From: Rhizobium sp. Root1203
Lineage (GTDB): Bacteria; Pseudomonadota; Alphaproteobacteria; Rhizobiales; Rhizobiaceae
Direction of reading: 5' to 3'
NCBI RefSeq assembly: GCF_001424945.1
Contig: NZ_LMCW01000034.1
Location: 153,831-217,830, forward strand
DNA length: 64,000 bases
A program made the position numbers and the translations under genes. Below are positions 54,806 through 60,138 of the stretch, in pieces (position 1 is the stretch's first letter; the number at the start of each line of letters is the position of its first letter). Under the pieces are notes generated by a model that was not told the DNA's origin, ran no database searches, and saw only the letters and a program-made list of their open reading frames with translations.

Positions 54806-56902
54806 ATGGCGGCAACCGTCCGGCTTCTGGAAAATCGTTGGGACGATTCATACGCGGCAGGCCTCGATGAGCCTGGCAAGCTGCTCTATCGCTCGAATCT
54901 GCTGGGCGCGGACAAGCGCATCACCAACTATGGCGGCGGCAACACCTCCGCAAAGGTCATGGAGATCGATCCGCTGAACGGCGAAAAGGTCAAGGTCCTC
55001 TGGGTTAAGGGTTCGGGCGGCGATGTCGGCACGATCAAGCTCGACGGGTTTGCGACGCTCTACCAGGACAAGCTCGATTCTCTGAAGGGCATCTACAAGG
55101 GCGTCGAAGACGAGGACCGCATGGTCGGTTTCCTCCCGCATTGCACATATAATCTCAACGGCCGCGCCGCATCGATCGACACGCCGCTGCATGGCTTCGT
55201 GCCCTTCACACATGTCGACCATATGCATCCGGATGCAATCATCGCGATTGCCGCCTCGAGAAATTCGAAGGAATTGACCCAGCAGATCTTCGGAGACGAT
55301 ATCGGCTGGCTGCCGTGGCGGCGTCCCGGCTTCCAGCTCGGTCTCGATCTCGAAGCGTTCGTCAAGGCAAATCCTGCCGCAAAGGGCGTCGTGCTCGAAA
55401 GCCACGGTCTCTTCACCTGGGCGAACGATGCCAAGGCCTGCTACGAGCTGACGCTCGACATCATCAACAAGGCGATCATCTGGTTTGCGGAGAAGACCGA
55501 AGGCAAGACAATCTTCGGCGGCGCCATCAAACAGAGCCTGGCCGCTTCCGAACGTCGTGCAATCGCTGCCCGCCTGATGCCTGAGATCCGCGGCCGCATC
55601 GGCAAGGCGGAGCGCAAGCTCGGCCACTTCGACGACCAGGACGCCGTTCTCGAATTCGTCAATTCCAGGGACCTGCAGCCGCTGGGTGCGCTCGGCACCA
55701 GCTGCCCGGACCACTTCCTGCGCACCAAGATTCGCCCGCTGATCGTCGATTTCGACCCGGCGAAGCCGGATGTCGATGCAATCGTCGCCGGTCTCGACAA
55801 GGCGCTCGAGGATTATCGCGCCGACTACGCTCGCTACTACAACGACTGCAAGCATGCAAACTCACCTGCCATGCGAGACGCGAACCCGGTCATCTTCCTT
55901 GTTCCGGGCGTCGGCATGCTGTCGTTCGCCCGCGACAAGGCCACCGCCCGCATCGCCAGCGAGTTCTATGTCAACGCCATCAACGTCATGCGCGGTGCCT
56001 CGACGGTTTCCGAATATCAGGGCCTGCCTGAGCAGGAAGCCTTCGACATCGAGTATTGGCTGCTCGAAGAAGCAAAGCTGCAGCGCATGCCCAGGCCGAA
56101 GAGCCTTGCGGGCAAGGTCGCCTTGGTCACCGGCGGTGCCGGCGGCATCGGTCGCGCAACGGCGGCCCGACTGATCGGCGAGGGTGCATGCGTGGTCCTG
56201 GCCGATATCGACCAGGATGCACTGAACGCCACGCAACAGGACTTCGCCAAGCAGTTCGGCGCCGACGCCGTTCGCAGTGTCAAGCTCGACGTCACCAAGG
56301 AAGACGCGGTGATTTCGTCCTTCGCGGAAGCCTGCGTCGAATTCGGGGGTGTCGATATCCTCGTGTCGAACGCCGGCATTGCCTCCTCGGCTCCGATCGA
56401 AAGCACCGAGCTTTCCATGTGGAACAAGAACATGGACATTCTGGCAACCGGCTACTTCCTCGTGTCGCGCGAAGCGTTCCGCCTGTTTCGAAAGCAGAAT
56501 CTCGGCGGCAACGTCGTTTTCGTCGCCTCCAAGAACGGTCTCGCCTCCTCGCCGAACGCCGCAGCCTATTGCACGGCCAAGGCTGCCGAAATCCATCTGG
56601 CCCGTTGCCTGGCACTCGAGGGTGCCGAAGCAGGCATTCGCGTCAACACCGTCAATCCGGATGCGGTTCTTCGCGGCTCGAAGATCTGGAGCGGCGAGTG
56701 GCGCGAACAGCGTGCGGCATCGTCCAAGATCGAGATCGACGAGCTGGAGGAGCATTACCGGAAGCGTTCGATGCTGAAGCTCAATGTCTTCCCCGAGGAC
56801 ATCGCCGAAGCGATCTACTTCCTGGCATCGGACCTGTCGGCAAAGTCCACCGGCAACATCATCAATGTCGATGCCGGCAACGCGCAAAGTTTCCCCCGGT
56901 AA
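54806..56902 (+). CDS. rhaD: Bifunctional rhamnulose-1-phosphate aldolase / alcohol dehydrogenase
   Basis: A 698-residue fusion. Residues 1 to about 425 form a class II aldolase/adducin-type domain with NYGGGNTSAK and the metal-binding HVDHMH; residues about 430-698 form a short-chain dehydrogenase with TGGAGGIG (442-449) and the catalytic Y588/K592 in AAYCTAKAA. The aldolase half splits rhamnulose-1-phosphate to DHAP and L-lactaldehyde; the dehydrogenase half is expected to oxidise lactaldehyde. ATG 54806 has GGGAGGA upstream. First gene of the divergent rhaDI unit. Confidence 0.94.
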   Translation: MAATVRLLENRWDDSYAAGLDEPGKLLYRSNLLGADKRITNYGGGNTSAKVMEIDPLNGEKVKVLWVKGSGGDVGTIKLDGFATLYQDKLDSLKGIYKGVEDEDRMVGFLPHCTYNLNGRAASIDTPLHGFVPFTHVDHMHPDAIIAIAASRNSKELTQQIFGDDIGWLPWRRPGFQLGLDLEAFVKANPAAKGVVLESHGLFTWANDAKACYELTLDIINKAIIWFAEKTEGKTIFGGAIKQSLAASERRAIAARLMPEIRGRIGKAERKLGHFDDQDAVLEFVNSRDLQPLGALGTSCPDHFLRTKIRPLIVDFDPAKPDVDAIVAGLDKALEDYRADYARYYNDCKHANSPAMRDANPVIFLVPGVGMLSFARDKATARIASEFYVNAINVMRGASTVSEYQGLPEQEAFDIEYWLLEEAKLQRMPRPKSLAGKVALVTGGAGGIGRATAARLIGEGACVVLADIDQDALNATQQDFAKQFGADAVRSVKLDVTKEDAVISSFAEACVEFGGVDILVSNAGIASSAPIESTELSMWNKNMDILATGYFLVSREAFRLFRKQNLGGNVVFVASKNGLASSPNAAAYCTAKAAEIHLARCLALEGAEAGIRVNTVNPDAVLRGSKIWSGEWREQRAASSKIEIDELEEHYRKRSMLKLNVFPEDIAEAIYFLASDLSAKSTGNIINVDAGNAQSFPR

Positions 56903-56952
56903 TGCACGGCTTTTCCGGCTGAAGCGCGGGCGCGCCCAGCAACGATTGGAGA

Positions 56953-56983
56953 CCTCATTCCTGTGCTTGTCACAGGGATGAGG
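56953..56983 (+). promoter_or_regulatory. Stem-loop between rhaD and rhaI
   Basis: CCTCATTCCTGTG (56953-56965) and CACAGGGATGAGG (56971-56983) form a 13-bp stem with one T-G pair and a 5-nt loop, 50 bp after the rhaD stop. There is no T-run, so it should not stop transcription fully; an mRNA-processing or stabilising role, or a short dispersed palindromic repeat, is more likely. Confidence 0.6.
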
Positions 56984-57042
56984 TAACGACATAGCCAAGC
57001 AGGCTCTGGAGCCGCGGGCGAACGTTTATACGGGAGGAACAA

Positions 57043-58335
57043 ATGACCGAATTCAAAATCGCGCAGGACCTGATTGCGCAGGAAAACGACAAGCGCGCAT
57101 CTGCCCAGAAATCCGACTACGAAGCGCTCGGCGCAAATCTGTCGCGCCGCGGTGTCGATATCGAGGCGATCACGCGCAGGGTCTCGGAATTCTTCGTCGC
57201 TGTACCCTCATGGGGCGTCGGAACGGGTGGGACGCGTTTTGCTCGCTTCCCCGCCAGCGGCGAGCCGCGCGGTATTTTCGACAAGCTGGACGACTGCTCC
57301 GTCATCAACGAGCTGACGCGTGCGACCCCGAATGTCTCGCTGCATATTCCGTGGGACAAGATGGACCCCCGGGAGCTCAAGGCGAAGGGCGATGCACTCG
57401 GCCTCGGCTTTGACGCTATGAACTCCAACACCTTCTCGGACGCACCGGGCCAAGCGCACTCCTACAAGTACGGCTCGCTCAGCCACACCGACGCGGCGAC
57501 GCGGGCTCAGGCTGTCGAACACAACATCGAATGCATCGAGATCGGCAAGGCGATCGGCTCGAAGGCGCTGACCGTCTGGGTCGGCGATGGCTCGAACTTC
57601 CCCGGCCAGACCAACTTCACGAGGTCCTTCGAACGTTATCTCGCGGCAATGGGCGACATCTACAAAGCGCTCCCGGATGACTGGAAGCTGTTTTCCGAGC
57701 ACAAGATGTACGAGCCGGCATTTTATTCGACCGTCGTTCAGGACTGGGGCACGAACTACCTGATCGCCCAGACGCTTGGACCCAAGGCGCACTGCCTTGT
57801 CGACCTCGGCCATCATGCTCCCAACACCAACATCGAAATGATCGTCGCCCGGCTGATCCAGTTCGGCAAGCTCGGCGGCTTCCACTTCAACGATTCGAAG
57901 TATGGCGACGACGACCTCGATGCCGGATCCATCGATCCCTACCGGCTGTTCCTGGTATTCAACGAGCTGGTCGACGCCGAACAGCGCGGTGTCAACGACT
58001 TCAATCCGGCCCACATGATAGACCAGTCGCACAACGTGACCGACCCAATCGAAAGCCTGATCAACAGCGCCAACGAAATCCGCCGCGCCTACGCGCAGGC
58101 GTTGATCGTCGATCGAAAGACGCTCGCGGGCCACCAGGACGGAAACGACGCGCTGATGGCGACCGAGACGTTGAAGCGTGCCTACCGCACCGACGTCGAG
58201 CCGATCCTCGCCGAAGCCCGTCGCAGGGCCGGGGGCGCGATCGATCCGGTTGCGACGTACCGAGCAAGCGGCTACCGCGCAAAGGTGTCGGCGGAGCGTC
58301 CGGCATCGGTCGCAGGGAGCGGCGGCATCATCTGA
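57043..58335 (+). CDS. rhaI: L-rhamnose isomerase (rhizobial/Pseudomonas type)
   Basis: A 430-residue TIM-barrel isomerase converting L-rhamnose to L-rhamnulose. Metal-site features are HKMYEPAFYSTVV, VDLGHHAPNTNIE and FHFNDSKYGDDDLDAG. The length matches the ~430-residue L-rhamnose isomerases (P. stutzeri type) rather than E. coli RhaA. ATG 57043 has a strong GGGAGGA site. It follows rhaD by 140 bp with a stem-loop between them and is followed by a terminator. Confidence 0.93.
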   Translation: MTEFKIAQDLIAQENDKRASAQKSDYEALGANLSRRGVDIEAITRRVSEFFVAVPSWGVGTGGTRFARFPASGEPRGIFDKLDDCSVINELTRATPNVSLHIPWDKMDPRELKAKGDALGLGFDAMNSNTFSDAPGQAHSYKYGSLSHTDAATRAQAVEHNIECIEIGKAIGSKALTVWVGDGSNFPGQTNFTRSFERYLAAMGDIYKALPDDWKLFSEHKMYEPAFYSTVVQDWGTNYLIAQTLGPKAHCLVDLGHHAPNTNIEMIVARLIQFGKLGGFHFNDSKYGDDDLDAGSIDPYRLFLVFNELVDAEQRGVNDFNPAHMIDQSHNVTDPIESLINSANEIRRAYAQALIVDRKTLAGHQDGNDALMATETLKRAYRTDVEPILAEARRRAGGAIDPVATYRASGYRAKVSAERPASVAGSGGII

Positions 58336-58392: not shown

Positions 58393-58851
58393 CTACGGCC
58401 TCCATTCGCCGGCGATCTGCCGCGTTGCGATGTTCAGCCTGTTCCAGACATTGATGTTGGCGATGGCGATGACCAGGGCAGCGAGGCTCTTGCCGTCGAA
58501 ATGCCGCGTTGCCTCGTCCCAGACGTCGTCCGGTACCGGATCGGCCCGATCGTTGACGCGTGTCACCGCCTCCGTCAGCGCCAATGCCGCCCGCTCTGCC
58601 TCGGTGAAGTAGGGCGTGTCGCGCCAGGCGCTGACGGCAAACAGCCGCTCGTCCGTCTCGCCTGCCTTCCTGGCAATGCGCGGGTGCCCGTCGATGCAGA
58701 CGCTGCAGCCGTTGATCTGGCTGGCGCGCAAATTGACCAGCTCCAGAAGGAGCGGCGAGAGACCAGTCTTGGCAGGTACGCTACCCAACGCCATCAGCGC
58801 CTGCATCGCTTCTGGAATGACGACGGCCGGATTGCCCATTCTTGCTTGCAT
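58393..58851 (-). CDS. Carboxymuconolactone decarboxylase / AhpD-like protein
   Basis: A 152-residue all-helical protein with the AhpD-type redox motif CSVC followed by DGH (residues about 55-62). Family members are alkylhydroperoxidase-like reductases. Divergent from an ECF41-type sigma gene, 113 bp away, which is the typical neighbour of such proteins, so this is probably its regulated target. ATG 58851 has AAGGAG upstream; the longer frame from 58878 is unsupported. Confidence 0.88.
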   Translation of the reverse strand: MQARMGNPAVVIPEAMQALMALGSVPAKTGLSPLLLELVNLRASQINGCSVCIDGHPRIARKAGETDERLFAVSAWRDTPYFTEAERAALALTEAVTRVNDRADPVPDDVWDEATRHFDGKSLAALVIAIANINVWNRLNIATRQIAGEWRP

Positions 58852-58881
58852 CGTGTGTCTCCTTGAGGTTTTTTCCAAAAT

Positions 58882-58927
58882 GACGCCACCGGCGGTGCTT
58901 TGTCACATCGGCTGGCTTTCGTTCGTC
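58882..58927. promoter_or_regulatory. ECF41-type promoter, possibly bidirectional
   Basis: On the plus strand TGTCACA (58901-58907) is followed after exactly 16 bp by CGTC (58924-58927), matching the ECF41 target promoter (TGTCACA, 16 bp, CGTC) described for this sigma group, and pointing at the sigma gene. On the minus strand the same -35 reads TGTGACA (one mismatch) and CGTC (58885-58882) follows after 15 bp, pointing at the AhpD-like gene, with ATG 31 bp further. The near-palindromic -35 could therefore serve both genes. Confidence 0.72.
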
Positions 58928-58964
58928 ATCCAGTTGACGGATCAGATTGGAGGAATGTGACGGG

Positions 58965-59840
58965 ATGAACGAGAAAGATTGGCTTGCCCTCGAATTCGAG
59001 ACAAAGAGGCAGCACCTCGCGGCGGTCGCCTACCGCATGCTGGGATCGCGCGCCGAGGCAGATGACGCCGTGCAGGAGGCGTGGCTGCGGCTCGGCCGCT
59101 CGGACATTGCTGAGATCGACAATATCGGCGGCTGGCTGACGACCGTCGTTGCACGTATCTGCCTGGACATGCTGCGGTCCAGGAAGAGCCGGCGCGAGGA
59201 GCCGCTCGATCTGCCTGTTCATGGCAGGATCGCCGACACCGCAAGGAGCATGGATCCGGAGCGCGAGCTAACCCTCGCCGACTCGGTCGGCGTGGCACTG
59301 CTCGTCGTGCTTCAGACGCTGGCGCCCGCCGAGCGGGTCGCCTTCGTGCTGCACGACATGTTCGATCTGCCTTTCGATGAAATCGCGCCGATCATTCGCC
59401 GGTCATCCGCCGCAACCCGGCAGCTCGCCAGCCGGGCGCGTAGAAGAGTACAGGGTAAAAGCGAGATGCCGGAAGCCGAGCTCGCCCAGAAGCGCAAGGT
59501 CGTGAGCGCCTTCCTGGCCGCCTCGCGCACCGGCGATCTCCAGGCGCTGCTTGCCGTGCTCGATCCGCAGGTCGTCTTCACCCCGGACGCAACCGCCATG
59601 GGCCTGGGGGCAACCGGGGCGCTTCGCGGCGCGCCTGCTGTGGCCGAGACTTTCAAGGGGAGGGCGCAGGGCGCCCGGCCGGCCCTGGTGGACGGCGAAT
59701 TGGGCCTCGTCGTCTCCCTCCACGGGAAACTGCGGGTTGTCCTGCTGCTTGCATTCGATGGCAACCGGATTTCCGCCATCGATGCCGTCGCCGATCCTGA
59801 ACACCTGGGCGGGATGACCTTCGCACTGCTTGAGGGTTGA
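58965..59840 (+). CDS. ECF41-type RNA polymerase sigma factor with SnoaL-like C-terminal domain
   Basis: About 291 residues. Sigma region 2 lies at about 15-90 (AVAYRMLGSRAEADDAVQEAWLRL, then NIGGWLTTVVARICLDMLR), region 4 at about 105-165 (LAPAERVAFVLHDMFDLPFDEIA), and the last ~120 residues form a SnoaL-like extension with a VADPEHL ending similar to the NPDKL motif of ECF41 factors. In that group the extension controls the sigma activity itself, with no separate anti-sigma factor; none is seen here. ATG 58965 has GGAGG upstream. Confidence 0.9.
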   Translation: MNEKDWLALEFETKRQHLAAVAYRMLGSRAEADDAVQEAWLRLGRSDIAEIDNIGGWLTTVVARICLDMLRSRKSRREEPLDLPVHGRIADTARSMDPERELTLADSVGVALLVVLQTLAPAERVAFVLHDMFDLPFDEIAPIIRRSSAATRQLASRARRRVQGKSEMPEAELAQKRKVVSAFLAASRTGDLQALLAVLDPQVVFTPDATAMGLGATGALRGAPAVAETFKGRAQGARPALVDGELGLVVSLHGKLRVVLLLAFDGNRISAIDAVADPEHLGGMTFALLEG

Positions 59841-59928: not shown

Positions 59929-60138
59929 TCAGCAGAAGCTGCAGGTCGCACCTGGATTGCCGGTAACTGCGTTTATGAACTTGCCCACGGGCGAAATACG
60001 CTGTTCGCGTTTGACCGCAGCCGTCTCGAGGAGTCGCTTGAAATCGTCAAGCTTCACGCCGTCGGCGCGCATCACCATGGCGATCAGGGGGTCGCGAAGC
60101 GCTTCGGATATCGTCAGGTCGTCTCTGGTCTTGCTCAT
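59929..60138 (-). CDS. Small hypothetical protein with C-terminal Cys pair
   Basis: A 69-residue basic, helical protein (MSKTRDDLTISEALRDPLIA...), start ATG 60138 with a strong AGGAGG upstream. The C-terminus ends ATCSFC, so the last residue and one three before it are Cys. No function recognised. It is divergent from the TetR gene, and the paired operators at 60225-60264 could act on both. Confidence 0.7.
   Translation of the reverse strand: MSKTRDDLTISEALRDPLIAMVMRADGVKLDDFKRLLETAAVKREQRISPVGKFINAVTGNPGATCSFC

Follow-up and report, generated by a model that had tools for sequence, protein, structure and literature searches.

A conserved face-to-face pair of ECF41-type promoter-like sites between divergent sigma factor and CMD/AhpD-like genes in Rhizobium sp. 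Root1203

INTRODUCTION

The ECF41 promoter and the COE partners of ECF41 sigma factors were described by Wecke 2012 (PMC3426412). In the available text of that study, a WLPEP linker is given as characteristic of ECF41, three conserved motifs are assigned to the C-terminal extension, and no anti-sigma gene is reported next to ECF41 genes. Its Table 4 covers 55 divergent ECF41 loci, with the motif ahead of the sigma gene in 36 and ahead of the partner gene in 41. Divergent loci thus often carry the motif before both genes, and a motif facing the sigma gene is therefore not new in itself. For the RpoE9 promoter of S. meliloti (SMb20029), a transcription start has been mapped 9 nt after CGTC (PMC6180224 Table 1; PMC3616915, as far as their accessible text goes). 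The accessible parts of PMC1557990 and PMC3420878 contain nothing further on the promoter.

Bidirectional promoters have been described for sigma70. In the available text of these reports, opposite-strand starts lie 7 to 25 bp apart and one binding event blocks the other (PMC12825309, PMC10268837). The sigma70 bidirectional promoters tested had low basal activity, and at basal strength there was little competition (PMC12825309, available text).

Here we analyze a 64,000-nt stretch of the genome of Rhizobium sp. Root1203 (contig NZ_LMCW01000034.1), referred to below as the window. The region between an ECF41-type sigma gene and its CMD/AhpD-like neighbor is, judged from its sequence, quite likely an ECF-type bidirectional promoter.

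RESULTS

Two facing promoter-like sites occupy the intergenic region. The CMD/AhpD-like gene and the sigma gene are divergent and separated by a gap of 113 bp; the sigma start codon at 58965 was picked from an alignment with relatives. A preliminary description of this DNA had noted TGTCACA-N16-CGTC on the plus strand, facing the sigma gene. This site is confirmed at 58901-58927, with its CGTC 37 bp ahead of the sigma ATG, and all 80 of the relatives scanned (the best 80 of 309, without an anchor) have it too, differing by no more than one mismatch. A second near-consensus candidate promoter, CGTCACA-N16-CGTC on the minus strand (58962-58936), lies within the stretch covered by that description and was overlooked there. 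The two sites point at each other and together form a dyad of the general form TGTCACA-N16-CGTC-N8-GACG-N16-TGTGACx.

The best 80 of 309 relatives and the window make up 81 loci, in 70 of which CMD directly adjoins the sigma gene and is divergent from it. Counts out of 70, below and in the following list, refer to these divergent loci. They were anchored on the sigma-side motif, and the sigma-side figures are conditional on that anchor. The features are as follows.

58901 to 58962: face-to-face ECF41-type promoter dyad of 62 bp, TGTCACA-N16-CGTC-N8-GACG-N16-TGTGACG, proposed from sequence, conservation and a blind pattern search
58901 to 58907, plus strand: sigma-facing -35, TGTCACA, exact in 65/70 loci
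58924 to 58927, plus strand: sigma-facing -10, CGTC, in 70/70 loci (anchored on the motif)
58936, plus strand: predicted transcription start of the sigma gene, the ninth base after CGTC (S. meliloti SMb20029 rule; a purine at this base in 47 of 53 distinct canonical ECF41 sites)
58956 to 58962, minus strand: CMD-facing -35, CGTCACA, a little ahead of the sigma start codon (conservation)
58936 to 58939, minus strand: CMD-facing -10, CGTC, found at N8 in 69/70 loci
58927, minus strand: predicted transcription start of the CMD gene by the same +9 rule, with a leader of about 76 nt
58949 to 58954, plus strand: likely sigma ribosome-binding site, GGAGGA, within the spacer of the CMD promoter (sequence)
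58965 to 59840, plus strand: ECF41-type sigma gene, 291 aa, with sigma2, sigma4 and a C-terminal NTF2/SnoaL-like domain
58393 to 58851, minus strand: CMD/AhpD-like gene, 152 aa, with a CSVC (CxxC) motif (Pfam CMD)
58882 to 58885, minus strand: CGTC proposed as a -10 in the preliminary description; CGTC recurs before CMD

The two predicted opposite-strand starts, 58936 and 58927, are 9 bp apart. GACG at N8 was present in none of the 53 distinct canonical ECF41 sites.

Turning to the surroundings, the pair is preceded by rhamnose catabolism genes on the plus strand (54806-58335), comprising an aldolase/dehydrogenase-like ORF assigned by eye and rhaI (NCBIfam). On the other side, next to a TetR gene, the minus strand encodes a 69-aa protein with a CSFC end and no Pfam match (59932-60138).

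The geometry of the pair is conserved. Among the 70 divergent loci drawn from the best 80 of 309 relatives plus the window, 68 have a facing site at exactly N8 that departs from the motif in no more than 1 of 11 positions. One locus had the site at N9 (L080) and another at N8 with 2 mismatches (L081); none of the 70 had it at any other center length from 3 to 13 bp. For a given facing 11-mer, the chance of matching with at most one mismatch is about 34 in 4^11 (arithmetic for even base composition). Across all 81 loci the N9 center occurs in two, L078 and L080. L078 is filed as a Chloroflexi MAG and encodes a rhizobial-type sigma factor of 63% identity, with a glyoxalase-type gene in place of CMD; its placement reflects either misbinning or transfer. 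The closest sigma factor among the best 80 of 309 relatives is that of Rhizobium sp. Root1220, at 80% identity.

The CMD-side -35 is less exact than the sigma-side one. At N8 it reads TGTCACA in 23 of the 70 loci, begins with G or C in 42 and is otherwise changed in 5. In 29 nonredundant loci the sigma elements hold a mean of 1.95 bits and the CMD elements 1.61, compared with 1.17 bits for the spacers and 0.28 for the 40 bases ahead of the dyad. The stretch between dyad and CMD changes in length and content from locus to locus, and the dyad is constant.

A natural split subclade separates the two halves. CMD is no longer adjacent to the sigma gene in ten loci (L027, L028, L029, L032, L036, L038, L042, L043, L046 and L054). 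In L028, genes for a HAD hydrolase and a RibD_C protein (Pfam) lie between the two; ORFs with the same starts were recognized by eye in the split loci other than L046 and L054, whose neighbors were viewed in part, and L032, L036 and L038 contain one more oxidoreductase-like ORF. On the sigma side of these loci the CMD-facing -35 is destroyed in 10/10. Ahead of the moved CMD, a second CGTC-N8-GACG core is present in 10/10, the sigma-facing -35 is absent in 10/10, and the CMD-facing site is kept with at most one mismatch in 9/10 (2 mismatches in L036), about 100 nt ahead of the ATG where measured. The ten loci form one clade nested among dyad loci (support 98 in a quick tree with long branches). 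The simplest reading of these sequences is one duplication followed by opposite -35 losses, and such a history would assign each promoter to its gene.

In a wider sample, facing pairs were seen in the window's sigma clade alone. This sample comprised 104 loci (L098-L201), of which four repeat one place and three (L191, L194 and L198) seem to duplicate loci of the 80-relative set; partial matches in G093 and G027 were left out. The rows divide into 93 canonical ECF41 and 11 of the window's sigma clade. Of the canonical rows, 38 have CMD in tandem upstream, 7 downstream and 4 divergently; in 44, none adjoins the sigma gene by the CMD profile. No facing pair was found within 350 bp ahead of sigma in any of the 93, and the face-to-face geometry as a general ECF41 trait was thus not borne out. 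The four divergent canonical loci (L115, L132, L134 and L190) have back-to-back sites, as does L200 of the window's clade, where CGTCACG-N16-CGTC with a variant -35 was recognized by eye on both strands. Interlocking is therefore dispensable for divergent control.

Eight of the 11 window-clade rows carry the facing pair, neither side of which has more than one mismatch. The CMD side is weakened in L197 (2 mismatches), and L158 retains the CMD promoter alone; the pair can therefore separate. In a quick tree with a long-branch warning, which included L068 with its short frame of 174 aa, 22 canonical rows chosen from the 93 fell across one branch from the window's clade with support 100. L226, basal in the tree, has a tandem CMD-sigma operon. 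The face-to-face form is thus limited, in this sample, to the window's clade and probably has a single origin there. A separate feature of five of the loci (L132, L134, L174, L177 and L179) is CGTC-N8-ATG ahead of sigma; by the 9-nt rule their sigma mRNA should be leaderless, starting on the A of the ATG.

At up to 2 mismatches, a blind DNA search returns to the same gene pair. The 62-bp dyad was used as a gene-free DNA pattern on 199 genomes of the same family, allowing at most 3 mismatches in 22 positions. There were 18 matching places in 17 genomes, and the reversed control pattern gave 0 matches in these 199 genomes at every mismatch level. Sixteen of the places (15 plus the window) have no more than 2 mismatches; all of them lie between this sigma gene and CMD, ending 0-2 bp ahead of the sigma start with CMD on the opposite side; G417 and G475, among the 15, seem to duplicate loci of the 80-relative set. 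One of the two places with 3 mismatches (L228) has neither gene, and the other was outside the gene check. A perfect 16-bp palindromic core, CGTCATGGCCATGACG, is present in 6 of the 15 blind-search loci checked. A class-wide search found the dyad in the window alone among 289 genomes, a set in which the order is thinly sampled (three genomes besides the window).

In L227 / L238 (G611), the sigma gene is split into two reading frames and the dyad is perfect (0/22 mismatches). A blastn search with 171 bp of the region returned 123 plasmid records, all from Rhizobium, and in 113 of them the match spans 80% or more of the query. Plasmid pRL11 of R. johnstonii 3841 carries the pair as RL_RS31870 (CMD) and RL_RS31875 (sigma), with the dyad (L055), and rhaI adjoins it there too.

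By its letters alone the motif is unremarkable in the genome, and the case rests on conservation. TGTCACA-N14-18-CGTC has a single match in the window (58901-58927), with 0.14 expected. Three window sites on both strands match the N16 motif with at most one mismatch, whereas 12 random windows gave a mean of 0.9; the sites described here, 58901(+) and 58962(-), account for two of them. Genome-wide (6.7 Mb, 69 contigs) there were 7 exact N15-17 matches versus 5 for the reversed control, and use of the motif as a genome-wide regulon marker was rejected on these numbers. One exact match elsewhere in the genome (L002, contig C1; spacer 17) has a long plus-strand ORF beginning about 77 nt downstream; the site may be a further target or a chance match. 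None of the remaining five lies clearly ahead of a gene by a rough ORF check.

The sigma factor is of the ECF41 type. Pfam analysis placed Sigma70_r2 and Sigma70_r4_2 above cut-off and gave no match to SnoaL. The best sequence match was SigJ (PDB 5xe7, E 7.9e-43), and the best fold matches of the structural model included SigJ 5xe7, SigG1 7qh5 and NTF2-like folds. Residues 171-290 were modeled with block pLDDT values of 77-96; the overall pTM of 0.56 leaves the relative placement of the domains unsure. The model thus indicates a large C-terminal NTF2/SnoaL-like extension, as in ECF41, and the TGTCACA-N16-CGTC promoter sequence and COE neighbor typical of that group are also present.

In an alignment of 28 of the 81 sigma proteins, the WLPEP motif of the sigma2-sigma4 linker was absent and VHGRIADTA or VPEPV-like sequences were found instead. 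DGGGK and NPDKL, which we take to be motifs of the ECF41 C-terminal extension, were as such absent in this alignment. The NCBIfam SigJ score was 241.7 bits, under the cut-off of 271, and the quick tree of long branches with 22 canonical rows did not support a position inside canonical ECF41. With no WLPEP and a score below the SigJ cut-off, the protein is therefore labeled ECF41-type, apparently a sister clade, and not filed as ECF41 proper; the preliminary designation as an ECF41 sigma factor was right as to type.

DISCUSSION

Sequence and conservation show that there are two promoter-like sites, that their geometry is fixed and to which gene each of them belongs. From these we infer recognition by the sigma factor of the window, the start sites and mutual exclusion, in the following manner. 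RNA polymerase with the window sigma factor would bind the 62-bp dyad facing either one way or the other. Bound at the left -35/-10, it would start near 58936 and produce the sigma mRNA, a positive autoregulation; bound at the right -35/-10, it would start near 58927 and produce the CMD mRNA. With the N8 center, both predicted starts would coincide with the G of a GACG, the complement of the opposite -10, and polymerase on either promoter would cover the elements of the other. The two starts should therefore exclude each other, and sigma feedback would compete with its own target. Autoregulation had been suggested from the plus-strand site alone; its conservation (80/80 of the best 80 of 309 relatives) supports this, in agreement with the counts in the available text of Wecke 2012 (PMC3426412).

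A more far-reaching reading, which we put forward tentatively as somewhat short of an even bet, is a self-competing ECF switch. With each -10 at the opposite start, a polymerase making sigma would make no target enzyme, and feedback would be limited by DNA geometry without an anti-sigma factor; one subclade would have become uncoupled through dyad duplication and opposite -35 losses.

It is rather unlikely, though worth serious consideration, that these are two independent sigma promoters brought to face each other through compaction, both working and interlocked without regulatory meaning. The intergenic space is short (113 bp), the N9 center is tolerated in two of the 81 loci, and competition at sigma70 promoters is weak at low activity (PMC12825309, available text). 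The dyad loci also appear to share a common origin, and N8 may therefore be in part inherited compaction. Against this, the dyad stays constant while the stretch leading to CMD varies in length and content, and the CGTC-N8-GACG core is kept in all ten moved copies after loss of the sigma-facing -35, which a recent duplication could explain too.

An improbable model is that of the preliminary description. There a single near-palindromic -35 (58901-58907) would serve both strands, paired with one -10 at 58924-58927 (+) and another at 58882-58885 (-). Its minus-strand match, TGTGACA-N15-CGTC, can be read at 58907-58882, and some kin have it as well. An exact CGTC at a spacing of 15-17 is, however, present in just 13 of the 70 divergent loci among the best 80 of 309 relatives plus the window (spacer 15 in 9, spacer 16 in 4). 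The spacing varies between 6 and 24 bp, 12 being the commonest value (26/70), and it was on this variability that we rejected the model. Moreover, L027 and L043 keep the CGTC despite loss of that -35, position 4 of the minus-strand -35 is G and not the consensus C in every anchored locus, and no conserved -35 is seen ahead of the CGTC (0.02-0.20 bits per column, -22 to -17). One point does favor the model: of the 77 loci with a CMD match, 76 have a CGTC 27-66 nt ahead of the CMD ATG, against about 0.11 in shuffled leaders. The +9 rule would also give CMD a short leader, of about 22 nt. Considered as a third promoter, this extra CGTC has no -35 that we could find and no fixed distance to the dyad.

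The face-to-face reading thus retains one part of the earlier proposal of a single element driving both genes: both promoters would lie in one compact element, as two complete facing promoters in place of a shared back-to-back -35. Its predicted sigma start, 58936, falls in the range of 58930-58940 expected earlier for the plus strand, and its CMD start, 58927, departs from the 58870-58880 expected for the minus strand.

Very improbably, the plus-strand site alone is a promoter and the minus-strand site is sequence constrained by the sigma translation start. The minus-strand -35 does touch the sigma start region, and the spacer of that site contains the likely ribosome-binding site. However, in all ten loci where CMD has moved, the facing -35 is lost from beside a sigma gene that is itself retained together with its ATG, and the site accompanies CMD instead. 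We give least credence to the dyad as an operator for another dimeric regulator: it has dyad symmetry and, in 6 of 15 blind-search loci, the perfect core, but the 22 positions of its pattern amount to the published ECF41 promoter written twice (PMC3426412, available text), and in the split subclade the halves separate together with their genes.

The closest described systems are the divergent ECF41 sigma/COE loci, which share the promoter, a partner of the CxxC carboxymuconolactone decarboxylase family and, often, the motif before both genes. The available text of PMC3426412 gives no relative placing of the promoters, whereas those of the window face each other across a constant 8 bp; the window's sigma clade also lacks WLPEP, unlike the ECF41 of Wecke. 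The interlocked geometry and the duplication with opposite losses were not described in the abstracts and text passages searched. M. tuberculosis SigJ (5xe7) is the best sequence and fold match and likewise has a C-terminal SnoaL-like domain, but it shares 33-35% identity with the window's protein in fold alignments. The SMb20029-rpoE9 locus of S. meliloti has the same promoter and partner type, with a single target; it differs, in the accessible text, in being a tandem CMD-sigma operon with one promoter (PMC6180224, PMC3616915).

In its symmetry the dyad resembles the prokaryotic bidirectional promoters of Warman, Grainger and colleagues (PMC12825309, PMC10268837), and the predicted start distance of 9 bp falls within their 7-25 bp. 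According to their available text, those promoters center on a shared symmetrical -10, whereas the dyad would consist of two complete ECF -35/-10 sets, with separate CGTC -10s 8 bp apart, ahead of the sigma gene and its likely target; in 6 of the 15 blind-search loci checked, however, the 16-bp core spanning both -10s is itself a perfect palindrome. The dyad offers a small, strongly conserved candidate case for an alternative sigma factor, with near-consensus elements on both sides and the split subclade as a natural control, in which one can ask whether polymerase exclusion restrains a positive feedback loop.
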